Shown piece by piece: positions 34,313 to 43,289 of a stretch of 43,289 nucleotides of DNA. This DNA comes from Desulfobulbaceae bacterium. GTDB taxonomy: Bacteria > Desulfobacterota > Desulfobulbia > Desulfobulbales > Desulfobulbaceae. A model generated the notes under the pieces. It saw nothing but the letters and a program-made list of their open reading frames with translations. It searched no databases and was not told the DNA's origin. Position 1 is the first letter of the stretch. Each line of letters opens with the position of its first letter. The translations under genes were made by a program, and so were the position numbers. Location: positions 1 through 43,289 of the forward strand of contig JAAYIE010000080.1 of the NCBI GenBank assembly GCA_012744275.1, read 5' to 3'.

Positions 34313-35107
34313 TCAGAAACGAAGCAATGCAGGCAGGCTGTTAATACCACCCAGGTAAAAAAAGCGGCCCAGGCCAATGGTAAAAATCAGGCAGCCGTAT
34401 AGGCTGTGTTCTACCGATGCGACCAGGGTTGAGCGGGTTCTCTGATAAGTACGGGCAAAAAGAAAGCTGCCGAAAAAGGTGAGCAGCACAGCAACCCAAT
34501 TACGGTAAATGACATGCGCCATGGCAAAGGCCAGCGCATTGGTCAACAGCAGTATCCCGGGTCGTTTGCAGATATCTTGGTATCGGTGGAGGAAAAATGT
34601 GCGGAAGATCAGCTCCTGCGGATACACGGACAAGAGTGGGTAGAGCAGCATCACGGCCAGCCACAGACCTGGATGCTGCCGCGGCAGAGCAAAAAGCGAG
34701 TCAGGCAACACCAGAAGCAGGAAGAGATACAGGATCAGAGCCACCACAGCCAGGCGCACGAGCATGGGGAGCAGTATGGACCGCCACCAGCTGCGACTAA
34801 GGCGGCCACAGTGATCAAAGCGGTCAATGCAACCCGCGGCTTGCAAGATCATGGCCTGGTTAAACCATAATTGTGCCCGGTCAAAACTCGCATCTGCCCG
34901 CAGCACAAGCCAAACGAGGCCCGCAGCCGGCCACAGCACCAGCCACAAAGGTATTGCAGGTGCAAGCACCAGCAACCAGGGCAGAGCAAAAAAGATCGCG
35001 ATCATCTCAAGCATCCGGGCCCTGGCTTTGGCGGCCACAGGGCTGTCTGCACCGAATGCCACCCCGCCCTGCTCCACTTGAGAGCGGCTGTTGCCTTCCG
35101 GCTTCAT
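34313..35107 (-). CDS. CPBP-type intramembrane protease
   Basis: Predicted 264-residue membrane protein with about seven hydrophobic helices, last gene of the RiPP cluster. It resembles the CPBP/Abi family: the usual EExxxR motif appears as QELIFR (Q164, E165, R169), the second motif His is in FAMAHV (H198), and a third lies in VEHSLYG (H234). CPBP proteases process or protect against peptides, and members occur in bacteriocin and other RiPP loci. The Gln in place of the first Glu could weaken catalysis. Its ATG overlaps the B2 stop as ATGA. Possible roles are maturation, export or self-immunity; none is shown by sequence alone. Confidence 0.75.
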   Translation of the reverse strand: MKPEGNSRSQVEQGGVAFGADSPVAAKARARMLEMIAIFFALPWLLVLAPAIPLWLVLWPAAGLVWLVLRADASFDRAQLWFNQAMILQAAGCIDRFDHCGRLSRSWWRSILLPMLVRLAVVALILYLFLLLVLPDSLFALPRQHPGLWLAVMLLYPLLSVYPQELIFRTFFLHRYQDICKRPGILLLTNALAFAMAHVIYRNWVAVLLTFFGSFLFARTYQRTRSTLVASVEHSLYGCLIFTIGLGRFFYLGGINSLPALLRF

Positions 35108-35547
35108 GATGCGCTCCTGCTGCGGACTGCTCCTTTCTGATCCACATTAACCCAATAGAGTACGCCCTCCCCACCCTGACCCAAAAATTCCGGATAACTT
35201 AGGCTGGAAGCTGCTTCCAACTCGTTGAACACCTTGCCCTTTGCGCTCAACCAGCAGTGTCCGCGCAGTTCCTGGTGCGGGCCAAGGCCCATCAGGCCAA
35301 TGTTGAGTTGCACTGGCACTCCTTTTTTTCTGAGCAGCACGGCCAATGGGTAGGAACGATAAAAGCAGGCATGCCGGCTTTTGCCGGCAAGCAGAGTGGT
35401 CAGCCGGTTCACCCGGGCAACGAGTTTATTCTGCTCTTCCAGGCTAGCCTGCACAGTGGCCACCGGCGGCAAACGCAAGGCTGTACCGCCACGCTTGCGC
35501 ACCAGCATGGCTTGAAGCAGTATCAGCAGGGTTTGCAGCGCAAGCAT
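35104..35547 (-). CDS. Lasso-type B2 leader peptidase (transglutaminase-like)
   Basis: Predicted 147-residue protein of the PF13471 'lasso peptide biosynthesis B2' family, a cysteine protease of transglutaminase fold that removes the leader peptide. The nucleophile block is HACFYRSYPLAVLLRKKGVP (C61 with the RSYPL segment), and the histidine block is GHCWLSAKGKVFNE (H97). The usual third-residue Asp may be replaced by Glu109. An N-terminal hydrophobic stretch precedes the core. It sits 35 bases after the radical SAM gene and overlaps the CPBP gene. It normally works with a PqqD-like B1 protein such as the one at 42723-43028. Confidence 0.85.
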   Translation of the reverse strand: MLALQTLLILLQAMLVRKRGGTALRLPPVATVQASLEEQNKLVARVNRLTTLLAGKSRHACFYRSYPLAVLLRKKGVPVQLNIGLMGLGPHQELRGHCWLSAKGKVFNELEAASSLSYPEFLGQGGEGVLYWVNVDQKGAVRSRSAS

Positions 35548-35582: not shown

Positions 35583-36563
35583 TCAGGATCCACTTTTGGC
35601 CAAATCATGGGTGCGGTTAAAGGACTGCATGGCATGGGCAAGACAACCACCAGTGCATTGCCCCCGCCGTAAATACACGCAGCGCATGCACTCGGGCATA
35701 CAGCCAAAACTTTTATAGGGCGCAGTCTTCTTTTGAAAATCACGCACCATTGCGTTGCGGTCGCTGTAATCTTCAAAAGGTACATTCAAAACATCAGACA
35801 GGGGGAAGCAGTGCCAGGCCTGCATGTCTGGCCCCAAATCCAGAACAGGCTGGCACACAGTCTTGAAACCTTCGCTGCAGCGCGCAAGGATGGCAAATTC
35901 CTCATCAGAAAACATGCACATGGTCAGGCCGCAGTCAAAACCGATCAAAATATCTTGCTGTTCACAGGCCATGGCCATGGCGGCCAGGGCACGCCCAGTG
36001 GCCCGGTACTCACCTGGATGCAGATAGGTGTTGTCGTGTCCAACAATGGGCTGGGCAATACCGATGCGAATACGACGGCGCAATCCATAGCGGTTGATCA
36101 GATTGACTAAATACTCGTAGCTAAAGTCAGGAGAAGTGACAGTGATACCCAGTTGCACCTTTGGGCCCAGAGCTGCCAGAGCATAGTTCACCCGCTCTTT
36201 TTGTTGTGGGGTGTCGTGCTCATTGAGAGATACATTGGCCAGCAGAGAAAGCTGTTCCTGAGGCAGGGCAGCCAAAAAATCCGCCACCTTTGCAGGCATC
36301 ATGCAGTTTGAGAAAAGATGCACATGAAATCCACGTGCAAATGCGCGTTGTACGATTGCTTCCAGTTGCGGATGCAGAGTTGGCTCACCACCGAGCAGCC
36401 GCAATTTTTTGTCGCCTGAACGTTCCAGAAAATCCATGATCCCGTCGAGCTGATCCAGGCTCATGTGCCGGGCCGTATTCACGTTCTCCTTCTGACCTAT
36501 TTTAGCGCGGGCAAAACAAAAGGCGCACTTGCGGGTGCAGTAGTTGGTAATAAGCAGATTCAT
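35583..36563 (-). CDS. Radical SAM/SPASM peptide maturase (first)
   Basis: Predicted 326-residue radical SAM enzyme. The [4Fe-4S] cysteines lie in NYCTRKCAFCF (CX3CX2C), close to the N terminus, and LRLLGGEPTLHP is the GGE motif. The C-terminal Cys-rich block CMPECMRCVYLRRGQCTGGC fits a SPASM-like auxiliary cluster domain, common in RiPP maturases that form C-C, C-S or C-O cross-links. The ATG at 36563 overlaps the stop of the preceding B12-type gene as ATGA; an in-frame TTG at 36569 is less likely. Substrate is presumed to be the precursor at 42637-42726. Confidence 0.88.
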   Translation of the reverse strand: MNLLITNYCTRKCAFCFARAKIGQKENVNTARHMSLDQLDGIMDFLERSGDKKLRLLGGEPTLHPQLEAIVQRAFARGFHVHLFSNCMMPAKVADFLAALPQEQLSLLANVSLNEHDTPQQKERVNYALAALGPKVQLGITVTSPDFSYEYLVNLINRYGLRRRIRIGIAQPIVGHDNTYLHPGEYRATGRALAAMAMACEQQDILIGFDCGLTMCMFSDEEFAILARCSEGFKTVCQPVLDLGPDMQAWHCFPLSDVLNVPFEDYSDRNAMVRDFQKKTAPYKSFGCMPECMRCVYLRRGQCTGGCLAHAMQSFNRTHDLAKSGS

Positions 36564-38851
36564 GAGCAAAAGGTTTTGGTATCTGGTGGTGTGCGGGTGA
36601 CAGAGGCGCTTTCATCTGCCATAAAACAGGGCGGCTGATTGGGCACAACTGCAACCGTACTGGTGGTTAAACCAAGTGCCTGCAGACTGGCGCTTATTTG
36701 TGCAGATGGGTTGCCGCCAGTAGGGGTGCCGTACGCAGGTGCAAGCGCCAGGTGCAATACAGGGTCAGGCAGGCGCAGCCAGCACAGCTGGGGCAGCAGG
36801 CGACAAAACTCGCGCGCCAGCTGTTCCTGCCACTGTTTGGGCATGTCAGCTGCTGCTGAGGGAAGGGTCAGCATGGTGAGGCCTGTATCTGCAAGCTTGC
36901 GCAGACTGGTGCAGCAGGCCTCGGCATCCGGTTCCTGGGGCAAAAGCAGGATGATCTCGCTGAAGGGGCGAATCAGGGCAAAACCGGTCAGGCGATAGTT
37001 TTGGCTGAGATGAAAAAATGCCCGACTGTTTGTGGCATCATGCTGCGCGTTAATCTCCGCGTTTATATGTGCATCTGTGCCTGCAGTGGTCTGCATTTTT
37101 GCATACATGGCAGTGGCAGCAAAACTGCGGTAATGCCAAACTCCCCGATGCACCAGGTGCTGCACCCATTCTGCTTCAGCAAAGAGCCCCGGCGGGGCAA
37201 CCAGGCGCAGACGCGCTGGTGCATAGAGCTGCAGGCGGCCGATCAGCTGCATCAGGCTTTGTTTGTCCACCCTGTCGCCCACCACCAGTTCCACATCATC
37301 ATCCTGCAGTTCAACCAGCATGCCAGTCAAATCATCCGGCAATGCGGTTGTCTGGGCGCTTGCCCTGGTGCAGCCCGGACATTTATATGAACAGGGGCTC
37401 TGCAGAACAATGCGGGTAAGGCCACCGTATTCAGGGGCATGGCCAGGCAGCCAGGGTGCTTTGGTGTGGATGGCGCGGGCAGTGAGATTGTATCGCTTTT
37501 CCACCACCTTGGAAGCGGCCTGGGCCAGGGCAAAATCAGCCTCTGTCATCCAGCGGTTTGACCAGGCCCGATAGGGTGGCTCTTGATCAAAATGGTAGCC
37601 ATATTCCAAAGCGCGGTGCCGCAACTCCGTACCGTTGAGCAGGCAGAGTTCGTTGCAGAAAATGCGGGTGGGCTGCTCAAGCATTATACTTACCAGCCCT
37701 TGCAGATACGTGGCCAGGGTTTCTTCGGGCAGGCCGCAAATCAAATAAATATTAAAGGGTACCTGGGCCTTGCGCAGGCGAGCCAGGCCTGCCCGAAAAC
37801 GCTCGGGTTGCCAGGCGCGGTGAATGGCGCGGGCTGTGGGCTCGTGGGTGCTTTGCAGGCCTACATCAACAATGGTGCAGCTCTTCAGGCATTCAGCCAG
37901 CTCTTCACTGACCTGATGCGCATAAATTTCAACCGAAATGACCGTACGCGGATTCTTGCGTTGCAACTCTGCCAGCACCTGCGCCAATTCCCTTAAGCGG
38001 GCCGGATTACTGTTACAGAGGATGGGGTCCAGAATATGGAAATAACCGGCTCCCCGGGCTGCCATAAAGGCTGCCTCCTCTGCCAGTCTGGCCACAGAAG
38101 CGCTGCGCACCCTGCCCCTGCGGCCCCCTTCAAAACAAAAGCTGCAGCGATTGGGGCAACCCCGGGAACCTTCCAGCATCACCCCCAGCAAGTTACGCTG
38201 ATCGGGCTGAATAAGCCCGGCAAGAATCACCGACGGCAAATCATCCAGGTTATGCACGGTTTCAGCCGGCCTGCTCAGAACCGAAACACCCCGGCTGCGA
38301 TGGCGCAGGCCTGAAACAGCAGAAGGGTCGATCAAACGGTCGCAGCCGCCTTGCAGCCAGGCACGTAAAAATTGAACAAAGGGGATTTCACCCTCCCCTT
38401 CGATGAGATAGTCCAGCTCGGTCAGGTGCTGCAAAAAATCAACTGCCGAATCGGTCACCTCCTGACCACCGAAAAGGAAAAGTGCTTGCGGCAACAAAGG
38501 CCTGAGATGAAGCAGCAGCTCTTCCACCGGCATCCGGTTCCAGATATTGAGTGTCCAGGCAATGCAATCGGGCTGCCAGGCTGCCAGGCGAACAGCCAAG
38601 TCAGCCATGTTTTCTGTGTTGTCCACTTCCACATAGCGAATACTCACCTGGCTTGCCAAATCGCCCGTTTGCGCTGCAACCAGGGCAAGAATGCGCACAG
38701 CCAGGCTGTAGTAGCCCGGCATGTTTATTGCCACCAGAAGCACGCGCCTGCGGCCGTCTTGCGGCCAGGAAATATTTGGGCCGGAAATATCCAGATATTG
38801 CCAGCTCCCTTGATGGTCAGGGCTGGATGGGCTGCAGGTGATGTCGGACAT
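36560..38851 (-). CDS. B12-binding radical SAM protein with a second CX3CX2C motif
   Basis: Predicted 763-residue protein. Residues 35-165 resemble the cobalamin-binding domain of class B radical SAM enzymes (RRVLLVAINMPG and the ALFLFGGQEVT strand), though no DxHxxG motif is seen. The first radical SAM core uses C232, C236 and C239 in GSRGCPNRCSFC. A second CX3CX2C, C487, C491 and C494 in SPCSYKCPGC, begins another unit in the C-terminal third. The second core lacks a clear GGE motif, so it may bind a cluster without full radical chemistry. B12 radical SAM enzymes methylate unactivated carbons. The gene overlaps its neighbours by 1 and 4 bases. Confidence 0.85.
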   Translation of the reverse strand: MSDITCSPSSPDHQGSWQYLDISGPNISWPQDGRRRVLLVAINMPGYYSLAVRILALVAAQTGDLASQVSIRYVEVDNTENMADLAVRLAAWQPDCIAWTLNIWNRMPVEELLLHLRPLLPQALFLFGGQEVTDSAVDFLQHLTELDYLIEGEGEIPFVQFLRAWLQGGCDRLIDPSAVSGLRHRSRGVSVLSRPAETVHNLDDLPSVILAGLIQPDQRNLLGVMLEGSRGCPNRCSFCFEGGRRGRVRSASVARLAEEAAFMAARGAGYFHILDPILCNSNPARLRELAQVLAELQRKNPRTVISVEIYAHQVSEELAECLKSCTIVDVGLQSTHEPTARAIHRAWQPERFRAGLARLRKAQVPFNIYLICGLPEETLATYLQGLVSIMLEQPTRIFCNELCLLNGTELRHRALEYGYHFDQEPPYRAWSNRWMTEADFALAQAASKVVEKRYNLTARAIHTKAPWLPGHAPEYGGLTRIVLQSPCSYKCPGCTRASAQTTALPDDLTGMLVELQDDDVELVVGDRVDKQSLMQLIGRLQLYAPARLRLVAPPGLFAEAEWVQHLVHRGVWHYRSFAATAMYAKMQTTAGTDAHINAEINAQHDATNSRAFFHLSQNYRLTGFALIRPFSEIILLLPQEPDAEACCTSLRKLADTGLTMLTLPSAAADMPKQWQEQLAREFCRLLPQLCWLRLPDPVLHLALAPAYGTPTGGNPSAQISASLQALGLTTSTVAVVPNQPPCFMADESASVTRTPPDTKTFCS

Positions 38852-39897
38852 CAGTTCTTGGTATAGTAACGTCTGCGCAGATCCCGCAGTTCAGAGGCGG
38901 AAAAAAAGCCGATCAGTTGCCTGAAGGCGCGCTCAGGAGTTTCAGCCGCGTAGAGCATGTTCGCCTTAAGCTGCACATAGTTGGCCAAATCTGTCTGGCC
39001 AAAAAAGGGCTGTATCCAGGCCTGCAGCCGCCGGTTTTCAGAATCTTCCAGGGGAAAGCAGCTGCACCAGGCCCCTGCTCCCAAAAAGAACAGACTGCCC
39101 ACCAGGTGCAGGGTCAGGGCAAACATTCTGGATACCCGGTTCTGGCGGCACCACTCGGCAATCCACGCCCAATCCAATTGTTCATCCACCATAAAAAGGG
39201 CGATATCCAGCAGCTGCTTGAAGATAGTCAACTCGTGGTGGATAAAAGCATGCAAAATCAGGCCAATAAGTTCATACTCTCTGGAAAGCACCTGCAGACA
39301 ACCATCCTGGGTATGCAAGGTGGAACGGCTTTGCAGCCACTGCTCTGCATCAACACAGTCGCGATAGCGTTTGGCAGTTAACAGCGACCAGTGCAATTCC
39401 AGCACCACGCCTTCTATCTGCACCACATCCTGGCTGCGCAACTGCTCGCAGGGTTTGTAACCGGCAAGAGCCAAAACATGCAAGGTGTGCTTACGTGCCT
39501 CTGGCAGCAACAAAATATCCACATCGCGCATGCTGCGTTCTACTGGCGAAGCATAGTCACGGTTGGCCAGCACTACCCCACGCATGGCCACCGCCTCTAT
39601 ACCCGCATTATCCAGCAAGCTAAAGAGCTGTACCGTGGCCTTTAGGGCACGCAGATTTGCCACCAGTTCAGCCATGGCCTTTTTATGCCAGCGTGGCACA
39701 GCTTCAAAGAGGTGCTGGTTTGCAGCCGTTGTCCGGTAAAAAAGCCCTTCCAAACCATGGGCCTCCACCCAGCGACATATCAGCTGCATATCCAGTTCTG
39801 CAGGGATGATCGCAGCCATCTCCCGCTGGCGGGCGTATTCACCCAGGCTATGGCGCAGCCAGAGATGGGTGTTTTCTTTGACGGTTGCGGCGGTCAT
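38851..39897 (-). CDS. NTP_transf_5 nucleotidyltransferase-like protein
   Basis: Predicted 348-residue protein of the 'uncharacterised nucleotidyltransferase' family (PF14907). The diagnostic segment is AVAMRGVVLANRDYASPVERSMRDVDILL, holding the metal-binding D-x-D (MRDVDIL, about 130-136), followed by LELHWSLL. Such proteins occur in lasso and other RiPP clusters and may transfer a nucleotide or sugar-like group to the peptide. The frame extends further upstream, but the ATG at 39897 overlaps the stop of the radical SAM gene as ATGA and is preferred. The protein is entirely cytoplasmic by appearance. Confidence 0.85.
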   Translation of the reverse strand: MTAATVKENTHLWLRHSLGEYARQREMAAIIPAELDMQLICRWVEAHGLEGLFYRTTAANQHLFEAVPRWHKKAMAELVANLRALKATVQLFSLLDNAGIEAVAMRGVVLANRDYASPVERSMRDVDILLLPEARKHTLHVLALAGYKPCEQLRSQDVVQIEGVVLELHWSLLTAKRYRDCVDAEQWLQSRSTLHTQDGCLQVLSREYELIGLILHAFIHHELTIFKQLLDIALFMVDEQLDWAWIAEWCRQNRVSRMFALTLHLVGSLFFLGAGAWCSCFPLEDSENRRLQAWIQPFFGQTDLANYVQLKANMLYAAETPERAFRQLIGFFSASELRDLRRRYYTKN

Positions 39898-41393
39898 GGC
39901 GCACCACCTGCAGTAAGCGGTGCCGGCAGTGCTGCCGAACGGTAGCTGAGGCATGCGCCAATGCACTGACCGCGCTGCCCCAGGGGGCAATCGCAGCACT
40001 GCACCATAACAGGACTGTGCATGCGCCTGCTGATGTTGTCGGCAAAAAGCCCGGCCGCATCTTCAGGCCCGGCGCAGGCAGTGATGGGTATGCTTGAGCG
40101 TTCATTCAAGCCCAGGCAGGCAGAGAAGCGCAAGTCTGGATAAACAACCAGGTTGTTAGAAAAACCAAGGAGATAACTTGGGCACACGCAGGCAAGCGAA
40201 CCGTTTTCAAGAAAATGCCGGCCCACTTCCTCCGGCATAAAGCACATGGGATAGGGCTTGGACAACTGAATTTGCATGCCTTCAATTTTAGCCCTGTGCA
40301 CCAGGGTCTGCAGCAGCGGAGCAAAAGCAGCCAACTGTTGCATAGCAACAAAATTGTTGCCACGCTGGCTGTTGGGCATGGGAATGGCAATGCGTAACTC
40401 ACTGATGTTGCAGTCTTGGGCTACTTGAAGATGTTGCAGAGCATCATCCGTGGGGCTGGCAAAGTTACAGCGCAAAATCGCGTAGATGCCTGCCTGTCGC
40501 ACCTGCTGTGCCGTGTTGATGAAGCGTGCCAACAGGTTAGAATGCAAAACTTCCGGGGTCAGGTGCAGGGTCAGGCACAGGGGCGGATTGGCTAATATGG
40601 CGTCAAGTGCGGCTGTATCCATCAGGCCATTACTGGCCATGTAGTATTCCAAACCTGCAGCGCGCACCTGTGCTAGCAAGGCCGGAAAACGACTGTATCT
40701 GGAAGGTTCACCACCGGTCAAGCCAAGTCGGCTAAGGCCGTGCTGCTGCATCCAAGTTACAAGCGCCTCCACCTGGCCGGCGCTCGCTTCCCTTTCGCCA
40801 GACTCGGATTTATCTGCCCCGGCTATGCAGTAGGAACAGTGCAACTGGCACTGCATGGTTGGTGAAAAGGAAACCTGCCCGGGATACTGCTGTTTTTCCA
40901 GAGCAGCAGCAGCACGTTGAAGTTTCAGCGCTTCATCAGTGAGCCCGGCAGCCATGAAAAATGCGGCCAGTTCATCCCGCACCCCGGCAAAAAGGGCCAG
41001 ACGTTTTACAAAAAGGCTCCGGCTGCGGGTATCCGGCAGGCAATGGATTTGCTCTACGCATAAGCGATGCAAACTCTGTTGAGCATCCGTATTGTACGGA
41101 TTGCCACTTATCCAGGCGGGAAGCTCAATGTTAAGCCCTGATCCATTCCTGACTACATCTGCATTGGCTGAAAAAGACCAATACGTACCCTTTTGCCAGC
41201 GGGTGGGCAAAGCAGCAGTGGGCAGCAAGCCAAAGAGTAAACGCATGGCTGCGCTGGCAAGCACTGGTTGAGCGCTGGCTGCATATTCCAGCAGGTGCGG
41301 CACAGCTGCAGTCCCCTTTTGAGCGAGGCGTTCCATGGCGACCAGGGTGGCCATGACCTCCATGTTGTGCTGCTCAACCTGCATTCCTGCCAT
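39894..41393 (-). CDS. Radical SAM/SPASM peptide maturase (second)
   Basis: Predicted 499-residue enzyme. An N-terminal region of about 170 residues resembles a helical repeat or recognition extension. The radical SAM core then starts with C182, C186 and C189 in MQCQLHCSYCIAG, with the GGE motif in LGLTGGEPS. The C-terminal part holds Cys-rich SPASM-like blocks (ACVCPSY, SACLGL and CCDCPLGQRGQCIGAC). Such enzymes install cross-links or epimerise residues in RiPP precursors. The start codon has no strong ribosome binding site; ATG codons inside at 41384 and 41354 are alternatives. It is 71 bases after the HprK-like gene. Confidence 0.87.
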   Translation of the reverse strand: MAGMQVEQHNMEVMATLVAMERLAQKGTAAVPHLLEYAASAQPVLASAAMRLLFGLLPTAALPTRWQKGTYWSFSANADVVRNGSGLNIELPAWISGNPYNTDAQQSLHRLCVEQIHCLPDTRSRSLFVKRLALFAGVRDELAAFFMAAGLTDEALKLQRAAAALEKQQYPGQVSFSPTMQCQLHCSYCIAGADKSESGEREASAGQVEALVTWMQQHGLSRLGLTGGEPSRYSRFPALLAQVRAAGLEYYMASNGLMDTAALDAILANPPLCLTLHLTPEVLHSNLLARFINTAQQVRQAGIYAILRCNFASPTDDALQHLQVAQDCNISELRIAIPMPNSQRGNNFVAMQQLAAFAPLLQTLVHRAKIEGMQIQLSKPYPMCFMPEEVGRHFLENGSLACVCPSYLLGFSNNLVVYPDLRFSACLGLNERSSIPITACAGPEDAAGLFADNISRRMHSPVMVQCCDCPLGQRGQCIGACLSYRSAALPAPLTAGGAP

Positions 41394-41464: not shown

Positions 41465-42484
41465 TCAACAAACTTTCTTGAGCGGATGCAGGTTCTGCAG
41501 CGCATCCATAAGCCACGGCCCTAGGGCTTGCGGGTTTGGCCCGCTAAACAAAGTGTAGGCTGGCAGTGTTTCAAGCGCTGAACTGCATACAGCCATGGCT
41601 GCGTGCGAAGGCCTTTGCCCCCGGGCAAAGGTGTGGGCATGGAGCAGCAGACCAAAGGCATGCTGTACAGACAGCGGTTGCAGCAGCGGTTTATCTCTGT
41701 CGATCTGTAAAACGCAGATGGCGTGCAAGGGGCAGGGTTCGTGCGTATAGGCCTGGCCATACACTGCATCGGCCGCAAGTACCCGCTTGCCATTGGGCAA
41801 TACAGTTTGTGTGGGAAGAGCACGAACAGCGTTTTCCAGTTCGGGAAAAAATGCAATGGTTTGCGCGCTCAGGTTCAGGGCCTCGGCAATGCCTTGCATG
41901 TGCGTGGTATTGTCAACTGTCTGTAGAGTAACCAGATCATCTGCCAACAGGCGCGCACCGCTGCGAAGCAGGGAAAGTGCCGTAGTGGTTTTGCCGCCAC
42001 CACTTTCAGCTAAAAGAAGAACACCATGGCCTGACGGTGTTTGCAGGGCGGCCGCATGCAGTAAAACCTTGTCCTGCACGGCAAAAAATTCGCGCAGAAC
42101 CGGCACCAGCACCGAGGAAACCGAAAGGGGTGTCAGCCCAGCTGTCCTCTTTTGGGCCAGGTAGTGCAGGTGTTGTGTGCCCGCATCCATCCAGGCGCAG
42201 TAGCGCGTCAGTTCGTTGGCAGCCAGTGCGGCGCAGTTGCCGGTATCGCCATACACAAGCTGAACTTCATCACTTTCAGGCAGGTTTACAACGTGGGCAA
42301 GCAGCCAGGCAGGCAGGTACCTGTTTAACGATGTTTCCTGTTCAAGCTGGCGTACGCAAAGGGTTACACCTGGCGCAGCGTTTTGCCGGGGCAGGCAGCG
42401 AAACATTTCGGCAATGGCCGCATGCGCGGGCGAGGCCTCTCCTTGCAGCAGGAAAGGCACGCCGCAGATGTTGACACAATCCAT
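41465..42484 (-). CDS. HPr-kinase-like protein of RiPP clusters
   Basis: Predicted 339-residue kinase-like protein. The Walker A loop is LLLAESGGGKTTTALSLL (about 157-173, K165), preceded by LLHAAAL and followed by LLADDLV (about 179-185). The order is that of HprK-related kinases found beside PqqD-like chaperones, which NCBI names HPr-rel-A, and of the lasso kinases that phosphorylate a precursor residue. Here the candidate targets would be the Ser, Thr or Tyr residues near the precursor C terminus. It is the first gene after the terminator, 36 bases beyond the T-run. Confidence 0.82.
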   Translation of the reverse strand: MDCVNICGVPFLLQGEASPAHAAIAEMFRCLPRQNAAPGVTLCVRQLEQETSLNRYLPAWLLAHVVNLPESDEVQLVYGDTGNCAALAANELTRYCAWMDAGTQHLHYLAQKRTAGLTPLSVSSVLVPVLREFFAVQDKVLLHAAALQTPSGHGVLLLAESGGGKTTTALSLLRSGARLLADDLVTLQTVDNTTHMQGIAEALNLSAQTIAFFPELENAVRALPTQTVLPNGKRVLAADAVYGQAYTHEPCPLHAICVLQIDRDKPLLQPLSVQHAFGLLLHAHTFARGQRPSHAAMAVCSSALETLPAYTLFSGPNPQALGPWLMDALQNLHPLKKVC

Positions 42485-42512
42485 TACCGTTTGGTTAGGG
42501 GCAAAACGAACT

Positions 42513-42546
42513 AAAAAAAAGCAGGAGCCGACGAGCCGACCCCTGC
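42513..42546 (-). terminator. Intrinsic terminator after the precursor gene
   Basis: On the minus strand a 10-bp stem GCAGGGGTCG/CGGCTCCTGC with a six-base loop is followed immediately by eight T. It sits 91 bases after the precursor stop and 28 bases before the HprK-like start. Partial read-through would give more precursor than enzyme, as in many RiPP operons. Confidence 0.88.
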
Positions 42547-42590
42547 ATCAATACATAAATCTACTACCAGCATCTGAGTACATCCAGGCT

Positions 42591-42609
42591 CCGGAACTGT
42601 CGGTTCCGG
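42591..42609 (-). other. Hairpin between the precursor gene and terminator
   Basis: A CCGGAAC/GTTCCGG stem with a five-base loop lies 28 bases after the precursor stop. There is no T-run after it. It may stabilise the short precursor mRNA or pause polymerase before the terminator at 42513-42546. Confidence 0.55.
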
Positions 42610-42636
42610 CCCGGAGGGTGGCAGGAGTGGCCAGGA

Positions 42637-42726
42637 TTAATAGTAATAGTAGTAATAATAGGTGGAGCTGACAGATTCTAAGGGATTATGCTTAAAGAAC
42701 TGCGGTGCAACATAACTCTTTTTCAT
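42637..42726 (-). CDS. RiPP precursor peptide ending in seven tyrosines
   Basis: A 29-codon gene too short for routine gene finders. The peptide starts MKKSYVAPQFF, runs through KHNPLES, then VSST, and ends in seven Tyr encoded by four TAT and three TAC codons in mixed order. The leader contains Y5-x2-P8, the tyrosine-proline motif recognised by PqqD-like B1 proteins in lasso systems. A good ribosome binding site (CAGGAG, 42735-42740) lies 8 bases upstream. The ATG overlaps the stop of the PqqD-like gene as ATGA. The Thr at 22 is near the leader end; lasso B2 enzymes prefer Thr at position -2, which would leave six Tyr, while cleavage after Thr22 would leave seven. No lasso cyclase is present. 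The peptide is the likely substrate of the whole cluster. Confidence 0.85.
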   Translation of the reverse strand: MKKSYVAPQFFKHNPLESVSSTYYYYYYY

Positions 42727-43028
42727 GACTGAATCTCCTGAACCGGTTGTTGAGTTAGCAGTTTGTTGCTGAGCAAACCTTGTACAAACGCTACCACATC
42801 GGCTTCGGCCTGCGCAAGGGAAACATCATACTCGGCGGTAACAGCCTCGACCACCTGGGCAATGGTTTTGTGTTCTGCCAGAAACAACCAGGTTAATCTG
42901 CCGATTTCATTAAAAGAAAAATACTCGCCCGAGGCAAGCTGCAGCACAATCAATTCTCCCTTGATGTCTCGCCAGGAAATGCCCTCGGTCGGTTGAAACA
43001 GGCTATCCTTACTGATTTTTACTTCCAT
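42723..43028 (-). CDS. PqqD-like RiPP recognition protein (B1-type)
   Basis: Predicted 101-residue PqqD-family chaperone. The winged-helix pattern of a RiPP recognition element is clear: an N-terminal strand, GISWRDIKGELIVLQLASGEYFSFNEIG, then TWLFLAEHKTIAQVVEAV and a final helix FVQGLLSNKLL. Such proteins bind the leader of a precursor and present it to the modifying enzymes. The ATG at 43028 is chosen because AAGGAA lies 7 bases upstream; an in-frame ATG at 43043 would overlap that site. Its stop overlaps the precursor start, so the two are translationally coupled. Confidence 0.88.
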   Translation of the reverse strand: MEVKISKDSLFQPTEGISWRDIKGELIVLQLASGEYFSFNEIGRLTWLFLAEHKTIAQVVEAVTAEYDVSLAQAEADVVAFVQGLLSNKLLTQQPVQEIQS

Positions 43029-43049
43029 ATTGTATTCCTTCATAAGCTG

Positions 43050-43229
43050 CTACATTGAGTGGTCACCGTACAAGGCGCGTCGCCATTGTTCAAGAAAAAT
43101 GAGCACCATCCACTGTGCCTTGCCCAGTACCGGGAACAGGGCTAAGCTCATTCGGACAACCCCGCAATTTTGCCAAGCATGCTGCCCTGTTTCTTTATAC
43201 GGAGATTCGTGGAAGGAACCGGTACTCAT
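43050..43229 (-). CDS. Possible 59-residue ORF upstream of the PqqD-like gene
   Basis: An open frame from ATG (43229) to TAG (43050) encodes 59 residues. It begins MSTGSFHESPYKETG and later holds AWQNCGVVRMSL, a hydrophobic MVLIFLEQWRRAL and the end YGDHSM. GGGG lies just before the ATG. The stop is 21 bases before the preferred PqqD-like start and 6 bases before the alternative start. I do not recognise it. It could be a small cluster gene, a second substrate or a leader peptide, or a chance ORF. Confidence 0.4.
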   Translation of the reverse strand: MSTGSFHESPYKETGQHAWQNCGVVRMSLALFPVLGKAQWMVLIFLEQWRRALYGDHSM

Positions 43230-43289
43230 CCCCGCACAAACATGGTAGATGTACGAAGCTACTGCGTAAGGATAATTTATATGGAGGGA
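43230..43289. other. Right edge of window, cluster upstream region
   Basis: The last 60 bases may contain the promoter of the RiPP cluster. On the minus strand ATATAAATTATCC (near 43270-43282) could give a -10 element, but its -35 would lie outside the window. Genes further upstream cannot be excluded. Confidence 0.3.

Follow-up and report, generated by a model that had tools for sequence, protein, structure and literature searches.

Does the 29-codon reading frame that ends in seven tyrosine codons in the DNA of a Desulfobulbaceae bacterium encode a RiPP precursor, and what might that peptide become? To answer this question we analysed the whole 43,289-nt stretch of contig JAAYIE010000080.1 (GCA_012744275.1; positions 1 to 43,289), hereafter the window. 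Our best reading, which we consider likely (probability of about 0.75), is that the frame belongs to a new RiPP family whose product would be a phospho-tailored, C-methylated and perhaps cross-linked oligotyrosine, the chemistry and function being inferred. RiPP cores normally mix residues; a nearly all-tyrosine core that is kept across distant lineages is unexpected, and it makes an unusually clean substrate. No description of a poly-tyrosine RiPP was found in the open-access literature searched (subscription journals and bioRxiv being mostly outside coverage), and we are aware of no assay of the enzymes, and of no transcript or product, for a cluster of this kind.

The precursor gene is under purifying selection

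The precursor gene (42637..42726, minus strand) starts with ATG and encodes 29 amino acids (MKKSYVAPQFFKHNPLESVSSTYYYYYYY), the last seven of which are tyrosines specified by TAT TAT TAC TAC TAT TAC TAT, followed by TAA. Its ATG overlaps the TGA stop of a PqqD-like reading frame (ATGA), an AGGAG sequence lies 8 nt upstream of this ATG, and residues 5-8 form a Y-x2-P motif. The tyrosine run with its mixed codons, a ribosome binding site, the overlap and the motif had been pointed out in the earlier note, and all were confirmed in the sequence. The gene is the only one of the 678 window reading frames (of at least 20 amino acids) in which at least four tyrosines are consecutive, the tyrosine frequency being 0.026 in the window frames of at least 150 amino acids. 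No run of that length occurs in the 4216 reading frames from 42 other loci (294,940 bases, some loci overlapping).

Two same-genus genomes, G029 and G026, carry the gene at the same position, and their peptides are identical to that of the window at 29/29 and 28/29 residues, respectively. The corresponding identities are 84% and 82% for the PqqD-like protein, and 56% and 59% for the HprK-like protein. Over the whole precursor gene, the synonymous versus nonsynonymous codon changes relative to the window are 12:0 in G029 and 17:1 in G026; within the seven tyrosine codons they are 2:0 and 5:0. The frame is a real gene under purifying selection and, because the tyrosine codons of the two congeners change only synonymously, selection operates on the tyrosines, as opposed to a slippage of triplets. 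This claim, also made earlier, therefore held, with the additional support of the occurrence of the gene at 12/12 loci.

A terminator-like hairpin of the intrinsic type (42521..42546, minus strand; 11 pairs and then eight U) stands 3' of the precursor gene, between it and the HprK-like gene (z −2.4; 4/200 shuffles fold equally well). Both congeners have a hairpin with a T-run at the same place (z −4.5 in G029 and −3.5 in G026). This terminator is perhaps leaky, and it is possible, by inference only, that partial termination yields an excess of precursor. A scan of 42400-43289 revealed no sigma-70-like promoter; the contig stops 246 bases upstream of the PqqD-like frame, so that the promoter and further genes on that side may lie outside the sequence.

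Leader, core and homologous precursors

In lasso peptide precursors, YxxPxL occupies positions −17 to −12 of the leader and Thr (rarely Ile/Val) position −2 (PMC10368454). The window precursor fits this register, with Tyr5 at −17, Pro8 at −14, Phe10 at −12 (F, not the L of lasso leaders) and Ser20 at −2. As Ser20 corresponds to −2, Thr22 is core residue +1. We thus predict a lasso-type leader, Y(-17)xxP(-14)xF(-12)...S(-2), comprising residues 1-21 (42664..42726, minus strand), and a core comprising residues 22-29, TYYYYYYY (42640..42663, minus strand). The core had earlier been taken as the seven tyrosines; this is amended to T-Y7, an inference drawn from sequence alone.

After duplicates and weak relatives were dropped, the cluster was counted at 12 loci, namely the window; G029 (bacterium S5R_St_30); G026; G070 (Desulfobulbaceae B4-01); G086; L045 (Nitrospirae Dive96_bin4.192); L046 (Nitrospirota CSMAG_1946); L048 (Geobacter Bin_37_3); G542 (Desulfobacterales CSMAG_2398; L044, L079); G547 (Desulfamplus magnetovallimortis; L050, L080); G546 (Verrucomicrobia I2_bin-230; L049, L078); and G908 (L084). 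Those that are named belong to Desulfobulbaceae, Desulfobacterales, Desulfamplus, Geobacter, Nitrospirota and Verrucomicrobia. In G542 and G546 the cluster genes are distributed between two contigs; in G547 they sit on a single contig, as two halves separated by about 14 kb. These loci contain 13 precursors, and an oligotyrosine C-terminus is encoded beside a PqqD-like gene at 12/12 of them.

The predicted core is TYYYYYYY in the window, G029, G026 and the first copy of G070; TYYYYTYYYY in G086; WYYYYYYYWY in L045; VYYYYYYY in L046; AYYYYYYYYYYYY, with 12 tyrosines, in the Geobacter locus L048; TYYYYTYV in G542; TYYYYYYTYTYIW in G547; TYYYYTYTYYYVS in G546; and VTYYYYYY in G908, where the tyrosine run begins one residue later. 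The cores have 5 to 12 tyrosines, except the weakly tyrosine-rich second copy of G070, which has three (TYYSRYW). None of the 13 contains Asp or Glu, and three (L045, L046 and L048) have neither Ser nor Thr, two of which (L045 and L048) are accompanied by an HprK-like kinase. In the leaders, position −14 is P in 13/13 precursors, position −12 is F in 11/13 (C and Y in the other two) and position −2 is S in 10/13 (A, G and D in the other three). Counting from the Tyr of YxxP, the tyrosine run starts 18 residues further on in 12/13 precursors and 19 in G908, which was counted by hand.

The earlier note had asked whether the C-terminus is always tyrosine-rich, and had taken homologous loci lacking the frame, or with a broken one, as its refutation. 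Such a failure was looked for at the 12 loci and not met. The C-terminus is oligotyrosine at each of them and not always pure tyrosine, since Thr, Trp, Val, Ile or Ser interrupt or end the run at some loci; the second copy of G070 is the weak case.

That second copy (L020 6866-6955) directly follows the poly-tyrosine one and has a similar leader, in which Cys replaces the Tyr of YxxP. It is possibly a natural core variant that shares the same enzymes.

How the precursors were picked matters for these counts. The L045, L046, L048 and G908 loci were reached through radical SAM enzyme 2 (see below), and their frames were then chosen with a tyrosine-run or YxxP filter; the G542 and G547 precursors were retrieved by means of a profile in which the tyrosine run is included, and both lie directly between the PqqD-like and HprK-like genes. 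The cleanest test is the Verrucomicrobia genome G546. There, the contig with the radical SAM genes starts inside the HprK gene, and a genome search with Transglut_core3 only led to the end of a second contig, where the peptide that follows the PqqD-like gene in the unfiltered list of frames ends in TYYYYTYTYYYVS. Ten of the precursors were scanned against NCBIfam and Pfam, with no match at E 1 in the former and a single weak, chance-level match in the latter. The precursors now provide a search profile for the annotation of such clusters.

Enzymes, proposed pathway and rival explanations

The RiPP context of PqqD-like, HprK-like and radical SAM genes, to which the earlier note had referred, was confirmed by Pfam and synteny. 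The set further includes a nucleotidyltransferase, a leader peptidase resembling B2 and a B12 radical SAM enzyme, and the window and its two congeners have the hairpin in common. A short leader/core precursor gene beside an RRE and modifying enzymes, i.e., the layout of a RiPP cluster, is shown at 12/12 loci; the modification of the core is inferred.

The PqqD-like RiPP recognition element, or B1 (42723..43043, minus strand; PF05402, E 3.4e-16), whose homologues align from the ATG at 43028, was identified at 12/12 loci by profiles and Pfam. It scores below the NCBIfam lasso_PqqD_Bac cut-off (52.5 of 80 bits). The HprK-like kinase (41465..42484, minus strand; PF07475, E 1.5e-8) has the conserved His, a GGGKTT P-loop and DD. 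The His, GKTT and DD are kept in 12/12 aligned sequences from 11 loci, Desulfamplus having GHGKTT, not GGGKTT. A kinase gene occurs at 12/12 loci, HprK-like at 11 and Kdo/WaaP-like at one (L046), where no HprK was seen in the examined stretch and where the Kdo/WaaP-like kinase may replace it. In G542 and G908, a fusion of HprK and nucleotidyltransferase follows radical SAM enzyme 2.

The nucleotidyltransferase (38851..39897, minus strand; NTP_transf_5, PF14907, E 5.4e-35) has a DxD motif (D125/D127) that is invariant in 11/11 aligned sequences. Next to it is a B12-binding radical SAM enzyme of the KedN5/CysS/TokK kind (36560..38851, minus strand; PF04055, PF02310). It matches the KedN5 family NF033712 below the cut-off (E 2.2e-31; 108.8 of 700 bits), and its closest solved relatives are CysS (9n1b, E 9.7e-38) and TokK (E 1.3e-26). 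CysS and TokK act on small molecules and are not known to act on ribosomal peptides. Both the nucleotidyltransferase and the B12 enzyme occur at 12/12 loci (on another contig in two genomes and about 14 kb away in one), the B12 enzyme being partial in G026 and divergent in L048.

Radical SAM enzyme 1 (39894..41393, minus strand; PF04055, E 1.1e-9), with conserved SPASM-like cysteines at its C-terminus and a helical N-terminal region, was seen at 8/12 loci; its model (mean pLDDT 78) best matches the fold of SuiB (5v1s) with a TM-score of only 0.43-0.49. Radical SAM enzyme 2 (35583..36569, minus strand; PF04055, E 1.5e-15; homologues align from the ATG at 36563) is present at 11/11 loci where the contig allows, and served as the search marker for eight. 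Its model (pLDDT 80, pTM 0.81) also best matches SuiB, whose four best chains give TM-scores of 0.65-0.69 when scaled by query length. The identity to SuiB being only 14-16% for both enzymes, the fold match does not fix their reactions. SuiB makes one Lys-Trp cross-link in streptide, and its cluster is not known to contain a kinase, a nucleotidyltransferase or a B2.

The Transglut_core3, lasso B2-like leader peptidase (35104..35547, minus strand; PF13471, E 2.7e-12) has Cys61 and His97, which are invariant in 10/10 aligned sequences. Such a protein occurs at 11/12 loci, the G026 contig ending too early. An Rce1-like CAAX membrane protease (34313..35107, minus strand; PF02517, E 4.9e-11) is encoded directly downstream of B2, also in G029; it could possibly serve in immunity or as a second protease. 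ABC exporter domains were identified by Pfam beside the cluster genes in G086, L045, L046, G542 (L079), G547 (L080) and G546 (L078; membrane part only). An ABC-like gene of G908 is left out of this count, having been recognized only by eye. No exporter was identified at the window, G029, G026, G070 and L048, where not every gene was scanned. The Kdo/WaaP-like kinase genes adjoin the ABC exporter at L046 5833-6693 and L079 14-832.

From these families and motifs, and from characterized lasso systems, we propose the following pathway. The PqqD-like protein would bind the lasso-type leader and bring the modifying enzymes to the C-terminus of the precursor. The HprK-like kinase would then phosphorylate a hydroxyl of the core, most likely of tyrosine because three cores lack Ser and Thr; in L045 and L048, if the kinase acts on the core, it must use Tyr or a terminus for the same reason. 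The nucleotidyltransferase would add a sugar or a nucleotide to that phosphate, as in pseudomycoidin, where the corresponding enzyme adds hexoses to the phosphorylated peptide (PMC8498205). The CysS/TokK-like enzyme would C-methylate, and the other radical SAM enzymes would oxidize or cross-link the tyrosines, both steps being inferred from the enzyme families only. Finally, the B2-like protease would cut after residue 21 to liberate a modified TYYYYYYY, which the ABC exporter, present in some clusters, would secrete; the leaky terminator would keep the substrate in excess over the enzymes. The suggestion of the earlier note that the product is a cross-linked or phosphorylated oligotyrosine is, thus, compatible with the enzyme set and no more than that.

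Tyrosine phosphorylation is the least certain step. BsfK, the characterized HPr-kinase homologue of a lasso system, phosphorylates the third core residue with the aid of B1, which also aids leader removal by B2 (PMC10368454). Its activity covered Ser and Thr, whereas a Tyr introduced at the target position was not accepted (PMC10368454), and the kinases studied here would therefore require a change of specificity. Repeated action of one radical SAM enzyme along a peptide has a precedent in the poly-cyclopropylglycine RiPP of TvgB (PMC9062424). That product, in contrast, is cyclopropylglycine made from Val, the word kinase is absent from the main text of the paper, and B12 occurs only in its reference list.

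A bolder reading can be formulated, which we hold to be tentative and, taken as a whole, less likely than not. In it, the clusters define an undescribed RiPP class of secreted oligotyrosines that are decorated with phosphate or sugar and radically C-methylated or cross-linked, HprK-like kinases modify tyrosine residues of the peptide, and the radical SAM enzymes are processive along 5 to 12 tyrosines. If this is true, the hosts would gain an aromatic redox, metal-binding or signalling polymer from a 29-codon gene. The system opens three questions to direct experiment: can an HprK-like enzyme be a kinase for tyrosine, can a radical SAM enzyme work its way processively along a homopolymer, and do RiPPs other than lasso peptides also use the lasso leader/B1/B2 module?

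Four rival explanations were weighed against the oligotyrosine RiPP. First, the cluster could make a redox cofactor of the PQQ or mycofactocin type, with excision of one or two tyrosines to give a small intracellular quinone or amine. The combination of a PqqD-like protein, SPASM-type radical SAM enzymes and a tyrosine-containing peptide supports this view, as would the anaerobic life expected of most host lineages. Against it, the number of tyrosines varies and the run reaches the C-terminus or nearly so, neither of which is needed for an excised dipeptide; six clusters have ABC exporter domains; and no kinase or nucleotidyltransferase is known to us in the PQQ and mycofactocin routes. We regard it as unlikely.

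Second, and less likely still, the product could be a regulatory peptide, unmodified or only phosphorylated; the tyrosine tail would serve the kinase as a phosphorylation tag, and the radical SAM enzymes would have other targets. In its favour, tyrosines can be phosphorylated, and the kinase gene directly follows the precursor gene in the window and at several loci. But the B12 radical SAM enzyme accompanies the precursor at 12/12 loci, as does radical SAM enzyme 2 at 11/11 (eight loci having been found through it), and the B2-like protease implies the release of a core.

Third, the peptide could be a lasso variant with its cyclase encoded elsewhere, which is very unlikely. The likeness to the phosphorylated or phosphoglycosylated lasso peptides (paeninodin, bsf and pseudomycoidin; PMC10368454, PMC8498205) is real. 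They share with our clusters the leader register Y(-17)xxP(-14)xL(-12) with its position −2, the separate PqqD-like B1, the Transglut_core3 B2, the HPr-kinase homologue and the nucleotidyltransferase, so that the B1, B2, K and N genes match those of bsf-type clusters, and one locus (L048 of Geobacter) has a gene of the Asn_synthase family. However, the defining lactam cannot form, because none of the predicted cores, which are nearly all Tyr after residue 1, has an Asp or Glu acceptor; membership of the lasso peptides was rejected on this ground. Furthermore, no cyclase (Asn_synthase) was seen among the scanned cluster genes of the window (34.3-43.0 kb, a scan bounded by the contig end upstream and not extending to other parts of the genome); the clusters instead have two or three radical SAM enzymes, one of them B12-dependent. 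The leader module of lasso peptides thus seems, by inference, to operate here on a core that is not of the lasso type.

Fourth, a chance or slippage frame at the end of the PqqD gene, suggested by the short length and homopolymeric end, is all but excluded and was already refuted by the synonymous-only changes in the mixed TAT/TAC run, the presence of the frame at 12/12 loci and the absence of tyrosine runs among the background frames.

Besides these alternatives, the SynChlorMet cassette (ScmC/D/F, NCBIfam) also unites HprK-type, PqqD-related and radical SAM/SPASM proteins, ScmC being HprK-like. The window proteins score far under its cut-offs (ScmD 30.3 of 100, ScmC 16.4 of 125 and ScmF 25.7 of 400 bits).

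The Asn_synthase/GATase_7 family gene of the Geobacter locus (L048 6949-8856) lies inside the cluster, in which no gene for radical SAM enzyme 1 was identified. It could possibly amidate or cyclize the product.

Distribution and related loci

The cluster is rare, being found in 3/23 same-genus genomes. A search with the PqqD-like protein gave matches in 16/73 family genomes, and the cluster in the window, G029, G026 and G070. In the other 12 of these 16 genomes (at most 34% identity), no frame with four tyrosines occurs in the stretches examined. The same is true of the stretches examined around eight weaker relatives of radical SAM enzyme 2 (G032, G092, L051, G441, G348, G567, G569 and G767). 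All these are therefore treated as other systems, although some of the stretches in question (L056 and L077) are short and may miss a precursor.

The profile of radical SAM enzyme 2 matched in 6/257 order genomes, 4/297 genomes of a phylum sample, 3/23 and 2/277 around the Nitrospirae and Geobacter genomes, 2/232 around Desulfamplus and 1/203 around the Verrucomicrobium; these tallies overlap, and include query genomes and weak relatives. Its alignment, searched against genome contigs, gave nine loci, among which L043 and L047 duplicate G029 and G070, and L051 is a weak relative; a single HprK-like protein searched in the same way gave no match. The precursor profile matched in 6/257 order genomes, one weakly, and found only the three congeners in a phylum sample of 345 genomes. 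The weak precursor match in G184 (E 0.007; L038) has no run of four tyrosines, and that in G546 (L063) is not flanked by cluster genes. Most loci come from draft or metagenome-assembled genomes, and not every gene was scanned with Pfam.

This sporadic occurrence possibly reflects horizontal transfer or frequent loss, which is an inference only. Two further origins were considered and set aside: a mobile one, the HprK-like protein having no match in the plasmid collection, and a viral one, radical SAM enzyme 2 having no relative in the viral-contig scan.

Several neighbouring observations came from these searches. The loci L074 (8468-12660) and L075 (2590-6899) encode relatives of radical SAM enzyme 1, HprK and radical SAM enzyme 2, with no PqqD-like or poly-tyrosine gene seen, and are possibly a different orphan peptide system. 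In Lentisphaerae, L051 (9707-17670) has PqqD-like, B2-like, several radical SAM and two HprK-like genes without a poly-tyrosine frame, and may be another orphan RiPP cluster. Lastly, L041 (5341-14828) and L042 (5702-10414) encode adjacent long proteins (659 to 919 amino acids) with domains like radical SAM enzyme 2, some of which have a weak match to U32 peptidases.
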